From JALXCG01 sp026991065 [NCBI: Gemmatimonadota bacterium] (GTDB lineage Bacteria; GCA-2686955): a stretch of 8,026 nt of DNA. Shown in pieces: positions 1 through 8,026 of this stretch (positions are counted from its first letter, which is position 1; each line of letters starts with the position of its first letter). A model generated the notes under the pieces. That model made no database searches, was not told the DNA's origin, and saw nothing but the letters and a program-made list of their open reading frames with translations. Location of the stretch: positions 1 through 8,026 of the forward strand of contig JALXCG010000135.1 of NCBI GenBank assembly GCA_026991065.1. Direction: 5' to 3'. Both the position numbers and the translations under genes were made by a program.

Positions 1-169
1 CATAGGTACCCGGCGCCACCCAAACCGTGTCGCCCGATGCGGCGGCGTCGAGCGCCCCCTGGATGGTGGGAGAGTCCGCCGGTACATGGAGGGTGCGGGC
101 AGCGGCGGGAGCGGCGCAAAGGGTGACCGCGAGCAAGCAGCCGAAGAGATTCTGAACGGATGAAAACAT
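1..169 (-). CDS. Secreted right-handed beta-helix (pectin-lyase-like) protein, N-terminal part only
   Basis: The reading frame opens with ATG at 169-167 and stays open to the window edge, giving 56 complete codons. The first ~24 residues form a signal peptide (hydrophobic stretch LFGCLLAVTLCAAPAAA, probable cleavage after Ala-Ala-Ala or Ala-Ala-Ala-Arg). The mature start, LHVPADSPTIQGALDAA, followed by GDTVWVAPGTY, is the typical first turn of DUF1565/pectin-lyase-fold beta-helix proteins. These are exported and often bind or cleave polysaccharides, but many have no known activity. GGAG at 176-179 (minus sense) lies 6 nt before the ATG. The gene begins 3 nt after the stop of the upstream glycosidase-like gene, so the two are almost certainly cotranscribed and translationally coupled. 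The catalytic or binding part lies outside the window, so an enzymatic role cannot be assigned. Confidence 0.85.
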   Translation of the reverse strand, partial: MFSSVQNLFGCLLAVTLCAAPAAARTLHVPADSPTIQGALDAAASGDTVWVAPGTY

Positions 170-172
170 GAC

Positions 173-3097
173 TCACTCCGGATTGTCGTCGGCGGTGATC
201 GGGATCAGTCGATCCGCCACCACGGTGATGGTGTCACTGGCGACCGGGGTTCCATTGACCGCATAGGTGAACACACTCTTCATGTCATTCGTATTGACGA
301 CCAGAGGAGCCGCGCCGAGAGAAACGGGATGAACCTCCACACCGTAGCAGTAGACCACATTGTCCAGCACATGCGAGCGTTGATCCTTGCCGGTGTGGCG
401 AAACACCACACGCAGGGTGCCGCTCTCATCGGTGGAAACGCGGAAGAGCCGGTCCTCGGTGGAGTCTTTCCAGACCGTGGCGTCCGCGCCTTCCACCCTC
501 ACTTTCTGACCGGTCAGGACCGGGAGCATGTAGCCATTGCCCAGGTCTTTGCCCCAGCAGTCCGGAGAATCCGGGTCGCACTCTTCGAAGTCGATATCCG
601 GGTTGTTCAGATAGACCAGAACATCGTATTCGGTGTTCGGCTCCAGCTCGCGCAGAATCAAAGGTTGGGTGCTTTTGTCGCTCAGGTCGACACTGTCGGC
701 AAAGGCCAGCCCATTGTGGTCGCGGTAGATGGTGGTTGGTGGAACTTTCCATTTGCGATGCACCTTGCGTTCGTCGTCGCCGATCACGCAGGAATCATTG
801 GGCGCAACTCCCCAGCCGACCCGCGGCGGATGGGTGTAATCGGGTACCGGCACCGTTTTGGGGCGTTCATAGTGGTAAGCGGCATCCGCCGTCATCCAGT
901 TTTCGAGCTTGAGAAAGTCGAGATCCACCGGGCCGTCCGCCCAGGGGCCCATGTCCAGCAGCCGGGCCCGGGCGCGGTAGTCGCCATAGAGAATGGTGAA
1001 CTGGCACCCCGGCAAGAGCGTGGTATTGGGGACGATGCGCACAGTGTGGCCCTCAATCGACAGGTCGAAGTTGCTGCTGCCCTCTTGAAGGCTGGCGCTG
1101 GCGCGGCCCACCGAAACATAGCCGGGCTGATCGGGATCGGTGGAGGGAGCGACCCAATCGGACGGGAGCATGATCTCCAGGGTGTCGGTCGCCGATCGCT
1201 GCTCCTCGATGATCAGGGTGATCTCATAGATGTTCTTCGAAGTGGCTTTGCCGACCTGTTTCAGCCCGGAAAGTGTCGTCACGCTGAAGCGATCCCGGGC
1301 CGCGCGGACCCAGTTGGTGCCCGACTTGAGATAGATCGGCGCGCCACTGAGGTTCACTGAGAGTTCATAGGTACCGGTGGCCGGATCATAAGTAATGTCA
1401 TCGCTGGTGATCTCCAGGGTGTCGATCCCGCCCGGGTCCGCGGGGAGTTCAGTAATGGGGTTACAAACCCCTATGGGGTCGGCCGTCATCTCACTCGGGA
1501 TGCGGCGGTAGAGGCGCATGGGGGTGTCATTGCCCAATTGAAGCGTAACGGAGAGATCGTAGTCGGTGAAGTTGTCGTATTTCGGGTTAGCCGTCCAGAG
1601 CGCGGTGATGGTCGTGTCTGGATGGGTGATGCCGCGAAAGCGCAGGCCGTAGAGATAGGGATCCTCCGGGTCGAGGTCCAGGGAGCTTTCGTAGGCGGCG
1701 TTCCACGTCGCCTGGTTGTGCAGGGTGGCGGCGTAGTAGCCGGGCTTGAGAATCTCTGGGTGGTCTGAAGTCACCGCGCCATGAGCGGCAATGCCCGGGC
1801 GGTCGGCCGGCGAGTCATCCCCTTTGCAGTGGTCACGAAATGCCAGGTGAATGGCATCGAGATAGCCGGTGGCGAGGCCCAGCAGCAGGGTACGCCCCAC
1901 GTAGTTGGCTTGGGTCTCGGCAGGATTGGTGTAGGGGCCGCCATCTGGGGCGGTCATGAGGGCGGCTTCATCCACCGTAACGCGCACCGGGTCCATGCCC
2001 CAGAAACGCCCCAGGGAGAAGATGGAGTTGCATTTTTCGAGAAAACCGGTGTTCCGGGTCTGGCCCTCGCCGGCCAGCAGGCGGGACTCCGGCGGCCCGC
2101 CCTGGAAGATGTGCACCCCGAGCGATTCATTCTGCAGGTGCCCGGTGGTATCGCCGGAACCGTAGGCGAAGAGGGCGAAATGGCGCTCCAGCGGAGAGAG
2201 GGTGACCCACTTGTGGGGATTGCCTTCCACCTGAACAGGCTCTCCGCCCTCTTCTACCGACAGCCCCTTGCCTCCGGAAGTGCCGCCGATGTAGATGGTT
2301 CCGGGCGCCCCCGCGGCACGGATCGCCTGCTTGGCCCGGCGGAAGAGCACCACGGTGTTCCAGGGGTAGAGACCGCGCATGAAGGGCTCGTTGAAGATCA
2401 TCCAGCGCTTGAAGGTGGCCTGCACTGCGTTGTCGGGATTGGTCGAGACCAAAGTGTCACGCTGGGCGCCATAGACCTCTGCTGTGCGGCCGGCGAAGTT
2501 CTGCCAGGCGACGAGCAGAGAGTCTCCCTTCAAAGTTCCCCCGGCGATGGTGCCCGACGCTACGGGATCGGCAAAGATTCCCGTGAGAGCAAAATAACTA
2601 CCAGTCCAGTTGTTGTCCTTGTCGGTCAGTTCGTCCCCCTTGACCCATGTCCAACCGGCGCCGCCCGGGCCATAGAGGTCGAGATGCCAGATCTGGTGGA
2701 GGTAGAGCGGCCCCCAGTTCTCAAGATGGCCCTCGCTGTAGAGGTTGCACCACCAGGCGAGAGCCTGGGTGCTGTCGGAGTTGCATTGGACCCAGAGCGG
2801 AATCTGCCGCGAGAAGTCGGGCAGCATGTCGGTTACGCTGGTGCGGTTGCTGTCGACCAGCCCCGCCCACCCCTGCATGGCGTTGGCATGGCGGATCCAG
2901 CGGTAGCCCAGATCGTAGCGCGCCCGGGCGGTGTAGAGGCGGGCGGTGTTTTCATCTTCAACGGTCGGCTCCAGGCAACTGCCCCACAAATTGGTCACCA
3001 CCGATCCCAGCAACTCGGTGGTGACCCGAAAATCGGCATCGCCATCCCGCGGCGGATTTACCGGAAGTGGCTCCGCGGCGGATCTACCGGCGGTCAC
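173..3097 (-). CDS. Large exported glycoside-hydrolase-like protein (clan GH-A type TIM barrel plus C-terminal beta domains)
   Basis: The open frame gives 974 residues from a GTG at 3097 to TGA at 175-173. Residues ~25-460 look like a (beta/alpha)8 glycosidase. RWMIFNEP has Glu237 in the Asn-Glu-Pro context of the clan GH-A acid/base, and RVTVDEAAL offers Glu377 as the nucleophile. Residues ~450-590 (KPGYYAATLHNQATW, then LRFRG and TALWTANPK) resemble the barrel end and beta-sandwich of GH39/GH5/GH30-like enzymes. Residues ~600-710 form a beta domain ending in FTILYGDY. Residues ~755-925 look like a carbohydrate-binding or Fn3-like jelly roll (ELEPNTEYDVLVYLNNPD). The exact GH family and substrate are not recognisable. 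The GTG at 3097 is probably not the real start: it has no Shine-Dalgarno sequence, and the in-frame codons just upstream read VLLCLVLAL, a signal-peptide core. No in-frame ATG, GTG or TTG exists between 3097 and the stop at 3217-3215. The likely start is the ATG at 3221, out of frame here because of the 7-bp repeat. It forms an operon with the downstream beta-helix gene. Confidence 0.8.
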   Translation of the reverse strand: MTAGRSAAEPLPVNPPRDGDADFRVTTELLGSVVTNLWGSCLEPTVEDENTARLYTARARYDLGYRWIRHANAMQGWAGLVDSNRTSVTDMLPDFSRQIPLWVQCNSDSTQALAWWCNLYSEGHLENWGPLYLHQIWHLDLYGPGGAGWTWVKGDELTDKDNNWTGSYFALTGIFADPVASGTIAGGTLKGDSLLVAWQNFAGRTAEVYGAQRDTLVSTNPDNAVQATFKRWMIFNEPFMRGLYPWNTVVLFRRAKQAIRAAGAPGTIYIGGTSGGKGLSVEEGGEPVQVEGNPHKWVTLSPLERHFALFAYGSGDTTGHLQNESLGVHIFQGGPPESRLLAGEGQTRNTGFLEKCNSIFSLGRFWGMDPVRVTVDEAALMTAPDGGPYTNPAETQANYVGRTLLLGLATGYLDAIHLAFRDHCKGDDSPADRPGIAAHGAVTSDHPEILKPGYYAATLHNQATWNAAYESSLDLDPEDPYLYGLRFRGITHPDTTITALWTANPKYDNFTDYDLSVTLQLGNDTPMRLYRRIPSEMTADPIGVCNPITELPADPGGIDTLEITSDDITYDPATGTYELSVNLSGAPIYLKSGTNWVRAARDRFSVTTLSGLKQVGKATSKNIYEITLIIEEQRSATDTLEIMLPSDWVAPSTDPDQPGYVSVGRASASLQEGSSNFDLSIEGHTVRIVPNTTLLPGCQFTILYGDYRARARLLDMGPWADGPVDLDFLKLENWMTADAAYHYERPKTVPVPDYTHPPRVGWGVAPNDSCVIGDDERKVHRKWKVPPTTIYRDHNGLAFADSVDLSDKSTQPLILRELEPNTEYDVLVYLNNPDIDFEECDPDSPDCWGKDLGNGYMLPVLTGQKVRVEGADATVWKDSTEDRLFRVSTDESGTLRVVFRHTGKDQRSHVLDNVVYCYGVEVHPVSLGAAPLVVNTNDMKSVFTYAVNGTPVASDTITVVADRLIPITADDNPE

Positions 3098-3221
3098 AAG
3101 GGCAAGAACCAGACAAAGAAGTACCGTGACCCGTGACCCGTGACCCGTGACCCGTGACCCGTGACCCGTGACCCGTGACCCGTGACCCGTGACCCGTGAT
3201 TCTACTGCTCCAGACTATCAT
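3084..3221 (-). other. Out-of-frame leader reading frame: probable true start of the glycosidase-like gene in an OFF repeat state
   Basis: ATG at 3221-3219 is preceded by AGAGG (3231-3227, minus sense) with 5 nt spacing, the best initiation site upstream of the long gene. It encodes MIVWSSRITGHGSR, then copies of VTGHGSR translated from the 7-bp repeat, then runs out of frame through the signal-peptide region to TAG at 3086-3084 (45 residues). From the ATG to the first G of the CDS codon at 3097 is 124 nt, one more than a multiple of three. Losing one 7-bp unit (117 nt) or gaining two (138 nt) would join this ATG to the long gene. The leader would then read MIVWSSR, repeat-coded residues rich in Arg and His, VLLCLVLALV, and TAGRSAAE, a complete signal peptide. 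The leader stop overlaps the GTG at 3097, so weak reinitiation there without a signal peptide is conceivable. Confidence 0.55.
3124..3200. repeat. Heptanucleotide tandem repeat, (CCGTGAC)10 plus one variant unit
   Basis: Ten perfect copies of CCGTGAC run from 3124 to 3193, followed by CCGTGAT at 3194-3200. On the minus strand this is ATCACGG followed by ten GTCACGG units. The unit length is not a multiple of three, so each gain or loss of a copy changes the reading frame. The array lies immediately 5' of codons for a hydrophobic signal-peptide core and 3' of a good ATG with a Shine-Dalgarno sequence. That position is typical of contingency loci that vary by slipped-strand mispairing. A perfect array of this length is expected to be mutable, and also prone to collapse in assembly. 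Confidence 0.97.
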
Positions 3222-3226
3222 CGCAA

Positions 3227-3231
3227 CCTCT
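3227..3231 (-). promoter_or_regulatory. Ribosome binding site for the ATG at 3221
   Basis: On the minus strand the sequence reads AGAGG, then TTGCG, then ATG. A purine-rich stretch (GGAAAAGAGG) with 5 nt spacing makes this a convincing initiation site, whereas the GTG at 3097 follows a pyrimidine-rich stretch with no such signal. It is the main argument for placing translation start upstream of the repeat. Confidence 0.6.
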
Positions 3232-3255
3232 TTTCCTACCGAGTAGTTGTGCGAT

Positions 3256-3590: not shown

Positions 3591-3611
3591 TTGGTTTTAT
3601 CAAGGAGGCCC

Positions 3612-4202
3612 ATGCCTGAAGATCCGAGACAGCAGGAGAAGCGCCACCACTTCTTCGCCGCCGCCGAGCCGTTGTTCACCCGTTACGGGTTTCGCAAGAC
3701 CACGGTGGAAGAGGTGTGTCGCGCCGCCGGTGCGTCCAAGCGAACCTTCTATGAACTGTTTCGCGACAAGGGCGACTTCTTCGCCCGCATGATCCTGGCG
3801 GCGGCCGCGCGGGCGATCACCGGTTGGCGGGAGCAGCGTCCGGAAGACGCCTCGGCGGTGGAGTGGTTCGATTCCTACATGGAGGGATATCTGCGTTTCG
3901 CCCAGGAGTGTCCCGCCCATGTGCAGTCGATGACCGAGCCGGAGATTCGCGGTGGTTTCGAGAACCTCGACCAGGAAGTGTTTCATCCGTTGATCGAACC
4001 GCTGCGCGAAATCATCGAGCATGGCATGGCGCGCGGTGAGTTCCGGCCGATGGATGCCGACCGGGTGGCGTGGATCGTCGGCGCCCTGCTCGACTGCATG
4101 CACTACTTGATTCCCCAACAGTACGGGCTGCCCGGCGCGGCGGATGATCCGGCGATGGCGCGGGAACTGCGGGACTTCATTGTCCAGGGGTGGAAACGAT
4201 GA
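3612..4202 (+). CDS. TetR/AcrR-family transcriptional repressor of the efflux operon
   Basis: 196 residues, a normal length for the family. The N-terminal DNA-binding domain is clear: residues ~13-27 (FFAAAEPLFTRYGFR) form helix 1, and TTVEEVCRAAGASKRTFYE at ~30-48 is the helix-turn-helix, followed by LFRDKGDFF, the usual 'F.sKe.L' segment. The ~140-residue C-terminal part is the variable helical ligand-binding and dimerisation domain; its inducer cannot be read from sequence. ATG at 3612 is preferred because AAGGAGG at 3602-3608 sits 3 nt before it and the family homology begins soon after. An upstream in-frame TTG at 3591 would fall inside the T-rich segment after the palindrome and has no ribosome binding site. 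The stop overlaps the next gene's start (ATGA at 4199-4202). Position suggests autorepression and control of the pump by a pump substrate. Confidence 0.92.
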   Translation: MPEDPRQQEKRHHFFAAAEPLFTRYGFRKTTVEEVCRAAGASKRTFYELFRDKGDFFARMILAAAARAITGWREQRPEDASAVEWFDSYMEGYLRFAQECPAHVQSMTEPEIRGGFENLDQEVFHPLIEPLREIIEHGMARGEFRPMDADRVAWIVGALLDCMHYLIPQQYGLPGAADDPAMARELRDFIVQGWKR

Positions 4203-5713
4203 GCAGAAGAATCTGTTGGCGGATCTGCCGCGCCGTTGCGCCGGCGTGGATGGCGGCGACTCTTGCCGTGCCCAGCGCCGCGGCCGCGCCCCAGCCGCTG
4301 CCGGAAGATCCGGTGATCGCGGTCGGGACCGATGCGGCCAGCGCCGAATTGCTCGGTCTCGACGGCTGCATCGCGATGGCACTGGAGGGCAACGATCTGT
4401 TGCGGGCGGAGCGCTGGCGGCGGCGATCGCTGGATGGTCAGATGAAGCAGGCGCTGGCCACCGGGCTCCCCACGCTGGATGCTTCCGGTTCCTGGATCCG
4501 CAGCCGTGATCCCAGCTTCGCCCTGGATGAGACCTTCTCCGGAGGCGGCGATGGTGACGCTGGCGGCGGCGGTGGCTCGCCGCTGGACAGCCTCTTCGCC
4601 GGCTTCGATTTTCTTCCGGCTCCGGAGGATATTCCGGCGCAGAGCTTTTGGCGGGCATCGCTCGATCTCAACTGGATGATCAATCCGGCGCTGATCTTTG
4701 GCGCGGTGGGCGCCGCGGGCTCCGGCATTCGCCACCAGGAAGCGGTGCTGGCCGAGGTGGAGAACGCCACGGTCGAGGGGGTGATGCGCGCGTATCACGG
4801 CATGATCCTCGCTCACGAACAGCTCGAAGCGGTGCGCGCCGACCGGGCCAACCAGGAGGAACTGCTGGAGATTCTGCGCCTGCGCTTCGAGAGCGGCATG
4901 GCGACCGAACTGGACACGCTGCAAGCCGCGGTGGCGGTGGCCAACATCGATCCCCAGATCCACGCCGCCGAGCGCGCTCTGCGGAAGGCGGCGGCGCAAT
5001 TGAATGCCGCAATGGGGCGCGAGCCGACCACTCCGCTGGCGATCCGGGCGCGGCAGCAGGTGGAGCTGGATCCGATCTCCCGCGACACCATTCTTCAGCT
5101 CCTCGAGGATCGCCCCGACCTGCGGCAGATGCGGATCATGGATGACCTGCTGCGACAGAATCGGCGGGTGCAAAAAGCGAAGATGCGTCCCTACCTGAGC
5201 ATGCACGGCAGCTACGGACTGGTGGGCAGGACCCTGGGTGGCATGAACGACACCGGCCACGATTTCTGGAGCGCCAGTGTTGCCCTTACGGTGCCGCTCT
5301 TCGACGGTTTCCTGAGCGGCGGCGAGGTACAGGAAAGTGACGCTTCGATCGCCCGCAATCAGGCGGAGCTGGAGGGCAAGCGGCGCCAGGCGCGGGTGGA
5401 AGCACTCGATCTGCTCGCCGGGGTCGCCGCCGCTCGCGGCACCCTGCACGCGGCGCAGCTTAACATGACCCGGGCCCGGGAGCTGGTCGCCAGCAGCAAA
5501 ATGATGTTGCGGCTCGGCAAGATCGACTATCTGTCGATGTTGCAGGCGGAAACCAATTGGGCGCGGGCACGCGCCAATCTGATTCAAGCGCGGTTCGACC
5601 TGCTTACGCAGACCGCGGCCTTGAAGCGCGCGGTCGGGGTCTCTCCCACCGTGCCCCTGGCCGATCTACCGCGGCTGGCGGCGCAGCGCGGCCGGGAAGG
5701 GATGGAGCAATGA
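4199..5713 (+). CDS. TolC-family outer-membrane efflux channel
   Basis: 504 residues. A signal peptide spans residues 1 to ~29 (basic MSRRICWRICR, hydrophobic core, cleavage near PSAAAA). The two-fold repeat of outer-membrane efflux proteins is visible. The first half begins with LDGCIAMALEGNDLL (~54-68) and continues with long alpha-barrel helices such as ESGMATELDTLQAAVAVA. The second half has VQKAKMRPYLSMHGSYGL, then SASVALTVPLFDG, and ends with helices including LGKIDYLSMLQAE. The protein would form the trimeric channel of the tripartite pump. The predicted first surface loop (about residues 103-150) is longer than usual and holds a Gly/Asp-rich run at 115-126. ATG at 4199 is chosen because of the ATGA overlap with the repressor stop and AGGGG at 4186-4190; an in-frame GTG at 4190 is less likely. 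Confidence 0.93.
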   Translation: MSRRICWRICRAVAPAWMAATLAVPSAAAAPQPLPEDPVIAVGTDAASAELLGLDGCIAMALEGNDLLRAERWRRRSLDGQMKQALATGLPTLDASGSWIRSRDPSFALDETFSGGGDGDAGGGGGSPLDSLFAGFDFLPAPEDIPAQSFWRASLDLNWMINPALIFGAVGAAGSGIRHQEAVLAEVENATVEGVMRAYHGMILAHEQLEAVRADRANQEELLEILRLRFESGMATELDTLQAAVAVANIDPQIHAAERALRKAAAQLNAAMGREPTTPLAIRARQQVELDPISRDTILQLLEDRPDLRQMRIMDDLLRQNRRVQKAKMRPYLSMHGSYGLVGRTLGGMNDTGHDFWSASVALTVPLFDGFLSGGEVQESDASIARNQAELEGKRRQARVEALDLLAGVAAARGTLHAAQLNMTRARELVASSKMMLRLGKIDYLSMLQAETNWARARANLIQARFDLLTQTAALKRAVGVSPTVPLADLPRLAAQRGREGMEQ

Positions 5714-6921
5714 TGGAGCAGAGCGGAATGGATGCTGAACGGACATCGGTTTGGAAGAGGCGGAAGTGGGCGTGGCGCAGCTCTTGCGCGACACTCTCGG
5801 GAGTGGTCCTGCTGGGGCTGGGCCTGATCCTGGGGGGGTGCGGTTCCGCCGGTCCGGCCGCGGAAGCGCCGCCGGAGCAGCCGCGGAATGTGCGGGTTCT
5901 GCAACTGGCGCCGACCCGCATCACCGAGTATTTCGAAATCTCCGGAACGGTGGAACCGCTGCGTGGCGCGAACATCAGCGCGGAGGAGAGCGGCACCGTG
6001 CTGCGGGTCGGGCACGACAAGGGGGAAGCGGTCAAGGCGGGCGATCTGCTGGTGGAGTTGGACCGCCGGATCCTTGCCGCGCAGCTTGACGCAACTCAGG
6101 CGAATCTGAAGCTGCAAGCCTACAATGCGGAAAAGACCCGCACCCTGCGCGCCGCCGGCAAGGTAAGTGAGCTGGAGCTGCTGGGTGTGGAAGCCCAGGC
6201 GGCCCAGGCACGCGCCACCGCAACCACCACGCGTCTGCGCTGGGAGCGGGCGGCGGTGAGCGCGCCGTTCGCCGGAATCGTTGCCGATCGCTATGTGGAG
6301 CCGGGGGAACTGGTGGCTCCGGGGCGTCTTCTGGCACGGGTGATCGATCCTTCGGTGCTGAAGCTCACCGGGTTTCTCACCGAGCGCGAAGTGGCGCGCC
6401 TGGAGCCCGGCATCCGCACCGAAGTGCACTTCGACGGCCGCAGCGCTCCGGCGCCGGGCGAAGTGACCTGGATCGGCTACGAGGCGGATCCCCGCACCGC
6501 CAAGTTCAAGGTGGAGATCCAGATTCAGAATGGCGACGGTGCCCTGCGTCCCGGAGTCGTGGCCCGCGCCCGGATCCCCAGCCGCGTTCACGAAGAGGTG
6601 ATTGCGGTGCCGCGCGATGCGCTGGTCGGCAGCGGCGCCAGCCCGGCCGTATTCGTGGTCGAGGGCGATCGCGCCCATCGCCGCGCGGTGATGCTGGGCG
6701 GCGATCAGGGGCTGATGAGTGTCGTTACCTCCGGGCTCAGTGCCGGCGAGCGGCTGGTGGTGCGGGGGCAGCGCGATCTGGTGGATGGTTCGCTGGTGCG
6801 CGTTACAGAAGAGACGCAACGCCCCGACGGCTGGCGCCCGGAGGACCCGGCCGTGGTCCGGGCCGCGATTGACGGCGCGGACGCGCCCGGACTGGACAGT
6901 GCCGGGGAGGCTCCGCAATGA
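5710..6921 (+). CDS. RND efflux periplasmic adaptor (membrane fusion protein, HlyD/AcrA type), lipoprotein
   Basis: 403 residues from the ATG at 5710. After a long basic N-terminus (WKRRKWAWR), the hydrophobic core ends in LILGGC, a lipobox with Cys44 as the lipidation site, so the mature protein should be anchored to a membrane and face the periplasm, as AcrA is. The first lipoyl half (SAEESGTVLRVGHDKGEAVKAGDLLVELD written in parts: SGTVLRVGHDKGEAVKAG at ~94-111) is followed by a short coiled-coil hairpin (~119-185). The second lipoyl half follows (VSAPFAGIVADRYVEPGE), then a beta-barrel (LKLTGFLTEREVARLEPG) and a membrane-proximal domain (VIAVPRDALV). The last ~35 residues form a loose acidic tail. 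ATG 5710 overlaps the tolC-type stop as ATGA; ATG 5713 and ATG 5728 are alternative starts that keep the lipobox. It links the inner-membrane permease to the TolC-type channel. Confidence 0.93.
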   Translation: MMEQSGMDAERTSVWKRRKWAWRSSCATLSGVVLLGLGLILGGCGSAGPAAEAPPEQPRNVRVLQLAPTRITEYFEISGTVEPLRGANISAEESGTVLRVGHDKGEAVKAGDLLVELDRRILAAQLDATQANLKLQAYNAEKTRTLRAAGKVSELELLGVEAQAAQARATATTTRLRWERAAVSAPFAGIVADRYVEPGELVAPGRLLARVIDPSVLKLTGFLTEREVARLEPGIRTEVHFDGRSAPAPGEVTWIGYEADPRTAKFKVEIQIQNGDGALRPGVVARARIPSRVHEEVIAVPRDALVGSGASPAVFVVEGDRAHRRAVMLGGDQGLMSVVTSGLSAGERLVVRGQRDLVDGSLVRVTEETQRPDGWRPEDPAVVRAAIDGADAPGLDSAGEAPQ

Positions 6922-8026
6922 AGCTGACCGATGCCTCCATCCGCAAATACCCGATGATCTTCGCCTTCATGGTGATCACCACCCTGGTGGGGCTGGATTC
7001 CTATCTGTCGCTGCCGCGCGAATCCTCTCCCGATATCAAGATTCCCTTCGTCATGGTGGTGGCCCCCTATGCGGGTGCCGGCCCGGAAGATATAGAGAAT
7101 CTGGTGACCCGCAAGCTGGAGCGTGAACTCAAGGGGATGGCGGACCTCAAAGAGATGACGAGTACCTCGAATGAGGGGATCTCCAACATCCTGCTGGAGT
7201 TCAACCCGAAGGTGGAGATGAGCGACGCCCTGCAGAAGGTGCGCGACCGGGTGGACCTGGCCAAGCCGGAGTTGCCCGAGGATCCGCGCGAAGATCTGCT
7301 GGTGATGGAGATCAGCTCCGACGACTGGCCGATCGTGCAGATCAATCTGACCGGCGAATATGATCCGATCCTGCTGAAGAAGGCCGGCGAGGATCTGCAG
7401 GACCGCCTGGAGGAGGTCCGCGGTGTTCTGGATGTGGATCTCACCGGCGGCGTGGACCGGGAAGTGTTGGTCGAGGTGGATCCCGACCGTTTGCAGTACT
7501 ACAATCTGTCGCTGCAGGATGTACAGGACGCGATCTTTCTGCAGAACACCACCATTCCGGGCGGTGAACTCTCTCTCGGTCTCTACAAGTATCAAGTGTC
7601 GGTTCCCGGAGAGATCGAGAAGCCGGAGGAGATTCTTGGGTTTGTGCTCAATCCCGGGGCGCCGACGCCGGTCTATGTGCGGGACGTCGCCTCGGTTCGT
7701 TTCGGGATCAAGGAGCCGGAGACAATTTCGCGGGTTAACGGCCGCCCGGCGGTGATCCTTTCGGTGAAAAAGCGCAGCGGCGAGAACATCATCGAGATCG
7801 TCGACCAGGTCAAGGAGGTGTTGGCCGAGATGGCGCCCACCCTGCCGCCCGGCACCGAGATCTCGATTGTCGGCGACCAGTCGCAGGATATTCGGCGGAT
7901 GGTGAATGAGCTGGAAAACAACATCATCAGCGGTCTCATTCTGGTGGTGGTGATCCTGCTGCTTTTTCTGGGGCTGACCAACTCTTTCTTTGTCGGGGTC
8001 GCCATCCCCTTCTCCATGTTGATCGC
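6918..8026 (+). CDS. RND-family efflux permease (AcrB/MexB superfamily), N-terminal part only
   Basis: The frame runs 369 codons without a stop to the window edge; the full family is about 1,000-1,100 residues, so roughly a third is visible. Residues ~13-30 (MIFAFMVITTLVGLDSYL) are the first membrane helix, followed by LPRESSPDIKIPFV. The porter domain shows the family pattern, with YAGAGPEDIENLVTRKLER at 51-69 and STSNEGISNILLEF at 82-95. IISGLILVVVILLLFLGL (~336-353) begins the second membrane helix, followed by FFVGVAIPFSMLI. As a proton-driven exporter it would supply the energy for the pump; the charged residues of helix 4 that carry protons lie beyond the window. The substrate cannot be told from this part. 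ATG at 6918 overlaps the adaptor stop (ATGA), with GGGGAGG at 6904-6910 at 7 nt spacing. Confidence 0.95.
   Translation, partial: MKLTDASIRKYPMIFAFMVITTLVGLDSYLSLPRESSPDIKIPFVMVVAPYAGAGPEDIENLVTRKLERELKGMADLKEMTSTSNEGISNILLEFNPKVEMSDALQKVRDRVDLAKPELPEDPREDLLVMEISSDDWPIVQINLTGEYDPILLKKAGEDLQDRLEEVRGVLDVDLTGGVDREVLVEVDPDRLQYYNLSLQDVQDAIFLQNTTIPGGELSLGLYKYQVSVPGEIEKPEEILGFVLNPGAPTPVYVRDVASVRFGIKEPETISRVNGRPAVILSVKKRSGENIIEIVDQVKEVLAEMAPTLPPGTEISIVGDQSQDIRRMVNELENNIISGLILVVVILLLFLGLTNSFFVGVAIPFSMLI

Follow-up and report, generated by a model that had tools for sequence, protein, structure and literature searches.

A heptanucleotide array in the signal-peptide code of a Gemmatimonadota gene family and its likely role as a translational phase-variation switch

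The window analysed here is the whole of contig C135 (8,026 b) of JALXCG01 sp026991065 (assembly GCA_026991065.1, hereafter G000), and on its minus strand a perfect array of the heptamer GGGTCAC lies within the start of a gene for a large secreted-type protein. We consider it very likely that this array is a translational phase-variation switch, and support for this is strongest from comparison, in which members of one gene family turned out to bear three unlike repeats at the signal peptide. The comparison drew on the source genome, a fragmented assembly (4.14 Mb, 902 contigs, 84% complete) that is probably a metagenome bin, and on a sister genome, the metagenome-assembled Gemmatimonadetes bacterium isolate ARS67 (G001; e.g. 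contig NYZA01000234.1), also fragmented; these two genomes made up the phylum-wide search, while the cross-genome searches with heptamers and with the family profile covered 386 genomes.

The array sits between a likely start codon and a predicted signal-peptide core

Repeat detection with Tandem Repeats Finder reported period 7, 10.9 copies and 100% matches for the array, and an exact search located ten full GGGTCAC units at window positions 3126-3195 with partial ends, together a 76-b perfect period-7 run. The preliminary description of this DNA had counted ten perfect units plus one variant, of which the ten units stand and the variant does not, the run being perfect to its partial ends. 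The array begins 22 nt after the likely ATG, in the 5' coding region, its unit length is not divisible by three, and it directly precedes the codons for the signal-peptide core (Table 1). The Shine-Dalgarno (SD) sequence and ATG earlier placed ahead of the array were both found there.

Table 1. Features of the minus strand of the window that bear on the proposed switch.
Feature	Position	Strand	Basis
Likely start codon ATG, whose frame runs through the array	3219-3221	-	AAGAGG five bases upstream; frame arithmetic
ATG frame at ten units: 45-aa OFF product ending at TAG 3086-3084	3084-3221	-	Frame arithmetic
Perfect period-7 tandem array, coding-strand unit GGGTCAC; proposed slippage switch	3124-3199	-	Tandem Repeats Finder and exact search
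Predicted core and cleavage site region of a signal peptide, read in the long frame, VLLCLVLALVTAGRSAAE	3071-3124	-	Directly after the array; translation
Long frame, 974 codons from GTG 3097; secreted-type product, probably containing a GH clan A-like module	173-3097	-	Profile match; paralogue
Start of a downstream beta-helix-like secreted gene, MFSSVQNLFGCLLAVTLCAAPAAARTLHVPADSPTIQGALDAAASGDTVWVAPGTY	1-169	-	Cut by contig end; beta-helix by eye

Frame arithmetic agreed with what had been claimed for this gene start on first inspection. At the ten units present the ATG frame is OFF and ends at the TAG given in Table 1, at 11 units it stops after 44 aa in the signal-peptide region, and across 1-15 units in silico it opens into the long frame at 3, 6, 9, 12 and 15 units, that is, at every third copy number, with products of 999-1027 aa at these multiples of three and of 23-52 aa otherwise. 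Because the 7-bp unit encodes an identical heptapeptide in all three frames, copy number alters the exit frame and the length of the n-region and not the make-up of the n-region. The ON product, at nine units as at the other multiples of three, would carry a basic n-region built of the heptapeptide GSRVTGH, followed by the core VLLCLVLALV. The long frame comprises 1013 open codons from stop to stop and extends 39 codons upstream of GTG 3097 to a TAG.

The hunt for further arrays covered 100 of the 902 contigs of G000 (502,450 b; C29, C441 and C567 picked for earlier matches and the remainder by index) and 20 stretches of G001 (299,130 b; 11 picked for earlier matches), so that heptamers other than GGGTCAC and TTCCGGC were sought in about 12% of G000. 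Together, the window and 100 G000 contigs (C29 deliberately among them) amount to 510,576 b, in which the period-7 runs that reach 20 b or more measured 21, 55 and 76 b; the longest that five order-1 Markov simulations of this size produced was 20 b. The 76-b run is the window array and the 55-b run an array on C29 described below, and the rest of the G000 sample held no long array. GGGTCAC arrays of at least three units occur at one place only in G000, within this gene start, and at four units GGGTCAC was found in one of the 386 genomes, namely G000, and in none of the 385 others.

Two further repeats resemble the array in some respect. The 21-b run, CCCGCGA in three units at 557-577 of G000 C608, reads TCGCGGG on the coding strand, close to GGGTCAC, and lies in frame inside a secreted beta-helix gene, away from its start. 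The sole plasmid match to the protein N-terminus, a Streptomyces record (NZ_CP109587.1, 284859-284930), encodes a similar repeat peptide, which was the only part to match, with no listed gene beneath the match in a gene table that is itself incomplete; such heptamers may recur far away.

Unlike repeats occupy the same place in related genes

Protein and profile searches found three family members in G000: the window gene, a full-length paralogue on C847 (59% identity to the window gene) and one on C29 that is cut by the contig end (62% identity over the N-terminal part). The window gene, C847 and a homologue on C234 of the sister genome, at 39-59% identity, all keep an intact long frame of 991-1013 open codons. 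The C29 paralogue possesses its own perfect array, of TTCCGGC (unit GGAAGCC), spanning 55 b at C29 252-306 and unrelated to GGGTCAC, which follows an SD sequence and ATG and precedes AFALLLLLLVLIFG / AFALLLLLLVLIFGVESVPAEP, the same place as that of the window array. By frame arithmetic this locus is OFF at its 7 full units and ON at 3, 6, 9 and 12. G000 holds only one TTCCGGC array of at least three units, and at four units the motif was again found in G000 alone (1 of 386 genomes, none of the 385 others). The preliminary description had held that similar arrays scattered at random sites would weaken a switch role; instead, the GGGTCAC array is single, and the only other long heptamer array that came from the family search and the 12% sample occupies the equivalent position in the C29 paralogue. 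Where the contig ends within the C29 gene, there is an 18-b inverted repeat (1-18 and 48-65, by eye), perhaps an assembly artefact.

In the sister genome the repeat at this place is a homopolymer, a tract of seven or eight Cs (C7-C8) lying in the signal-peptide code at all four readable 5' ends (contigs C2, C9, C87 and C234). The homologue on contig C9, with eight Cs, is ON and in frame to the contig end (MKSVRTQCAVGLLGLLLAPPIDAIADIVPVMPPRDG). Those on contigs C87 (seven Cs) and C234 (eight Cs) are both OFF and would both be ON at nine Cs; the two differ by one C and are otherwise equal in length around the tract. We counted the fourth, on contig C2, as broken or misassembled, and positions 523-2954 of that contig show several frame breaks and unread bases, pointing to a decaying copy or a poor assembly.

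Taken together, the seven loci comprise four OFF (window, C29, C87, C234), one ON (contig C9), one broken (contig C2) and one unreadable (C847). Repeats were present in the signal-peptide code of two of the three G000 members, the third being unreadable far enough upstream, and of all four readable G001 homologues. Differences in tract length among related loci, with both ON and OFF states, were likewise present, between paralogues only.

As a positional control, we applied a filter (SD sequence, ATG within 130 nt, open frame into the tract, hydrophobic core), counting each tract once (200 and 140 tracts in the two genomes when counted on both strands). Four of 100 tracts in 513,582 b of G000 passed, as did 3 of 70 in 305,627 b of G001. 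Family loci account for four of these seven passes (window, C29, C87 and contig C9), on contigs that had been sampled on purpose, and the non-family passes were a G7 tract at window 5832-5838, a G7 tract on G000 C644 and a seven-C tract on G001 C50. The motif TTGC7 occurs at 14 sites in G001, of which four are family 5' ends, against three sites for a reversed control pattern.

A proposed slippage switch on a putatively exported protein

The phase-variation reading first proposed for the window gene is supported by the heptamer array at the same place in a paralogue, by the poly-C tracts of the sister-genome homologues and by the frames themselves. Under this reading, slipped-strand mispairing would add or remove 7-bp units and so shift the frame of the ATG relative to the long frame. 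When the units number a multiple of three, translation would cross the array, adding GSRVTGH as n-region, and complete the signal peptide, so that the large product is synthesised and exported. Other unit numbers would yield only a short product, of 44-45 aa for 10 or 11 units, and the contig would have captured one such OFF length. Each family member with its own tract could switch independently. From this arrangement we infer that the tract slips in living cells, that the protein is expressed and exported, and whatever benefit the cell may have from it.

We regard the window gene as a well-supported translational phase-variation locus and the family as probably phase-variable. Because three unlike repeats (GGGTCAC, GGAAGCC and poly-C) sit at the signal peptide of one family, a slippage switch under selection is suggested, and we lean slightly towards the view that switchability itself has been selected, the signal-peptide code having become a slippage switch at least three times and providing random, independent variation of exported proteins, perhaps together with their beta-helix partners.

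Several observations weigh on the other side. The four poly-C tracts of G001 probably derive from one ancestral tract, which is why at least three origins (two heptamers, one poly-C) are counted and not six. Both assemblies being fragmented, every tract length is one consensus. No repeat was seen in the 47 nt upstream of the match on C847, where the contig ends; the ATG of C234 sits at a contig edge, and its frame was inferred from C87; and the homologue on contig C2 is out of frame at all tract lengths from six to twelve Cs (C6 to C12), with a further base missing downstream and unread bases in the contig. Of the six family loci whose 5' end could be read, two, those on C234 and contig C2, failed the position filter. 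Within G000, the sampled 12% held no other heptamer switch and the other filter passes were only two short G7 tracts, while TTGC7 occurs at nine sites, none in the family, against none for the control, so that the motif count alone is uninformative.

Alternative explanations

Of the alternatives, the one that fares best, though still unlikely, is that the arrays are neutral, having grown by slippage where the n-region tolerates any basic peptide, and that the OFF genes are broken copies. Signal-peptide n-regions do tolerate much variation and the homologue on contig C2 looks truly broken, but two unrelated perfect arrays occupy two of the three G000 paralogues with no other period-7 run of at least 22 b in the 510,576 b, the long frames are open over about 1000 codons in three members, and one G001 copy is in frame.

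It is less plausible again that tract length is irrelevant, either because the long frame starts elsewhere (at a CTG in the core or at GTG 3097) or because frameshifting or transcriptional slippage bypasses the tract. The long frame does contain one CTG, within the hydrophobic core, and a poly-C tract could permit transcriptional slippage. On the other hand, GTG 3097 comes after most of the hydrophobic core and would leave no full signal peptide, no SD-like sequence precedes it by eye, slippery frameshift sites are not known to include heptamer arrays, and an SD-like sequence with an ATG lies upstream in the window and on C29, C87 and contig C9. An internal start as the normal start was considered in its own right and rejected, given that the long frame has no ATG, GTG or TTG between the upstream TAG and GTG 3097.

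We give still less credence to an assembly error, in which the copy number would be wrong and the gene always in frame. Short-read assemblies can miscount tandem repeats, yet short reads of common lengths would span a 76-b array, a second locus, with a different unit, is likewise out of frame, tract length varies among the poly-C loci, and the position of the arrays stands even if the counts are wrong.

The least credible alternative is a dispersed heptamer element of the Nostoc or Xanthomonas type (Xanthomonas GGGAATC) that sits here by chance and has a role in DNA or RNA structure, for although heptamer repeats are enriched between genes in those genera (PMC4692102), and the coding-strand array fits a G-quadruplex pattern by eye, G000 has a single array of at least three GGGTCAC units, inside a gene start, on which ground this candidate was rejected, the paralogue unit GGAAGCC is without G3 runs, and the sister genome has poly-C at the same stage of the gene. 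The pattern fitted at window 3126-3195 on the minus strand is (G3N4)x10, which the C29 unit does not fit.

The product of the long frame and its beta-helix-like neighbour

Evaluating the product of the long frame further, we found no Pfam match for the window protein at E 0.01, and at E up to 1 a weak Ig-like match (0.077) in only one of three family members. A sequence search of the PDB returned one chance match only, to an antibody chain (E 0.48), and structure models of the full protein and of its N-terminal module both failed (pLDDT 31 and 32). Among the 386 genomes, the family profile weakly reached a protein of genome G129 (E 2.6e-4), whose Pfam domains are Cellulase (GH5), GH39-like and CBM9, and genome G133 at two places (residues 613-708; E 2e-5 and 3e-4). 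With hhalign, residues 226-504 aligned to the catalytic region of the G129 protein at 95.6% probability, for a single chosen pair with a shallow profile. Residues N236-E237-P238 and E377 are invariant in three members, and in this same single pair the E237 motif aligned to NEP of the G129 protein and an Asp-Glu containing E377 to its TEI.

Glycoside hydrolases (GH) of clan A carry an acid/base Glu in Asn-Glu-Pro and a nucleophile Glu on a TIM barrel, and E237 and E377 are candidates for this pair. Judged by sequence, the window gene likely encodes a GH clan A-like secreted protein. The label of glycosidase-like that had been attached to it earlier therefore keeps moderate support, from the profile match to a GH5/GH39-like protein, and finds no useful match in Pfam or the PDB. 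Relatives of the family numbered none among 34 pattern matches on viral contigs and one among 218 in the genome-contig scan, which was G001's own contig.

The adjoining beta-helix gene of the preliminary description proved real: its ATG at 169 directly follows the long-frame stop at 175-173, and it is possibly translationally coupled to the long frame. The beta-helix call for this neighbour stems from its likeness to the gene adjoining the family member on C234 of the sister genome, a match to Pfam Beta_helix (1e-11), and contig C2 likewise has a beta-helix-like start (by eye) beside its family gene.

Other genes and tracts

The remainder of the window (3591-8026, plus strand), divergent from the switch gene, encodes a TetR regulator and, after it, an efflux operon with genes of OEP, HlyD and AcrB type. 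The G7 tract that passed the position filter at 5832-5838 (plus strand) lies here, in frame within the codons for the signal peptide of the operon's membrane-fusion lipoprotein (GVVLLGLGLILGGCGS); being short, it is probably ordinary, with weak slippage a possibility.

Glycosyltransferases are classic phase-variation targets, and on C43 of the sister genome a seven-C tract (1501-1510) lies 75 nt after the ATG of a glycosyltransferase-like start (SMIARDETRFLPACLESIRGLADEVVVVDTGSNDDT, by eye), in frame. In G000, an eight-C tract stands in frame 34 nt after the ATG of a helicase-like frame (GAGTGKTRVI, by eye) on both C664 and C701, which are seemingly near-copies of one start, and a seven-C tract on C810 (302-311) directly precedes GAGGAG and the ATG of a gene with a signal-peptide-like start.

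Comparison with known phase-variable systems

Frame-switching repeats have been best studied in host-adapted pathogens and commensals, with immune escape as the usual explanation. Our analysis points to switches of this kind, built from different repeats, on a family of apparently secreted, possibly sugar-cleaving proteins in a little-known phylum. If these bacteria are free-living, other pressures would have to be considered, such as phage, grazers and the sharing of secreted enzymes. Even where a genome is fragmented, comparison of paralogues at their 5' ends can bring loci of this kind to light, and the change of unit between paralogues offers a way to ask whether selection keeps the switch rather than a given repeat.

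Among the matches listed in the open-access literature, no title concerned such loci in this lineage. Titles on phase variation in marine or uncultivated bacteria were on Francisella and Neisseria, and those on phase variation with metagenome-assembled genomes gave a methyltransferase review. PMC4692102 notes the lack of a detailed literature on heptameric repeats, describes longer runs of repeats as commoner in non-pathogens whose genomes are large and GC-rich and cites work by others for an enrichment of repeats close to the N-termini of prokaryotic genes; on these statements a heptamer tract in a non-pathogen is unsurprising in itself.

The mechanism proposed here is a known one; the novelty lies in the lineage, in the gene family and in the combination of repeat units. 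A heptamer array is linked to surface-protein phase variation at hmwA of Haemophilus influenzae, where it lies in the promoter and alters level and not frame, unlike the window array. Closer in its logic is neuO of Escherichia coli K1, which is present as one gene per genome and is not known as a signal-peptide switch. Located on prophage CUS-3, neuO has a heptanucleotide array in its 5' coding region, reaches full length only at multiples of three and was OFF in 42 of 64 complete genomes (PMC13001214). The window gene shares with it the heptamer array in the 5' coding region and the multiples-of-three rule; neuO, however, encodes a capsule O-acetyltransferase with the unit AAGACTC, whereas here a paralogous family carries different units. 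The likeness to oipA of Helicobacter pylori, which is switched ON and OFF by frame through (CT)n in its signal-peptide code (PMC10564699), lies in this placement of the repeat, with oipA differing in its dinucleotide unit, its outer-membrane protein and its pathogenic bearer.

The opa genes of Neisseria form a multi-copy family in which each copy has a frame-setting repeat in its leader-peptide code (PMC3745409; copy numbers in PMC5953494). As with opa, there are several paralogues here and each readable one possesses a repeat in its signal-peptide code, although the two families are not homologous. The opa copies share the pentamer CTCTT, and their products are adhesins in the outer membrane of host-adapted bacteria, whereas the repeats here differ and the genes encode a large GH-like protein of secreted type without an Opa barrel by Pfam (E 0.01). 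The anatomy found here combines the opa layout, in which every copy has its leader code interrupted by a repeat, and the heptamer rule of neuO, and it is set apart from both because members of one family have unrelated repeats at this same stage of the gene.

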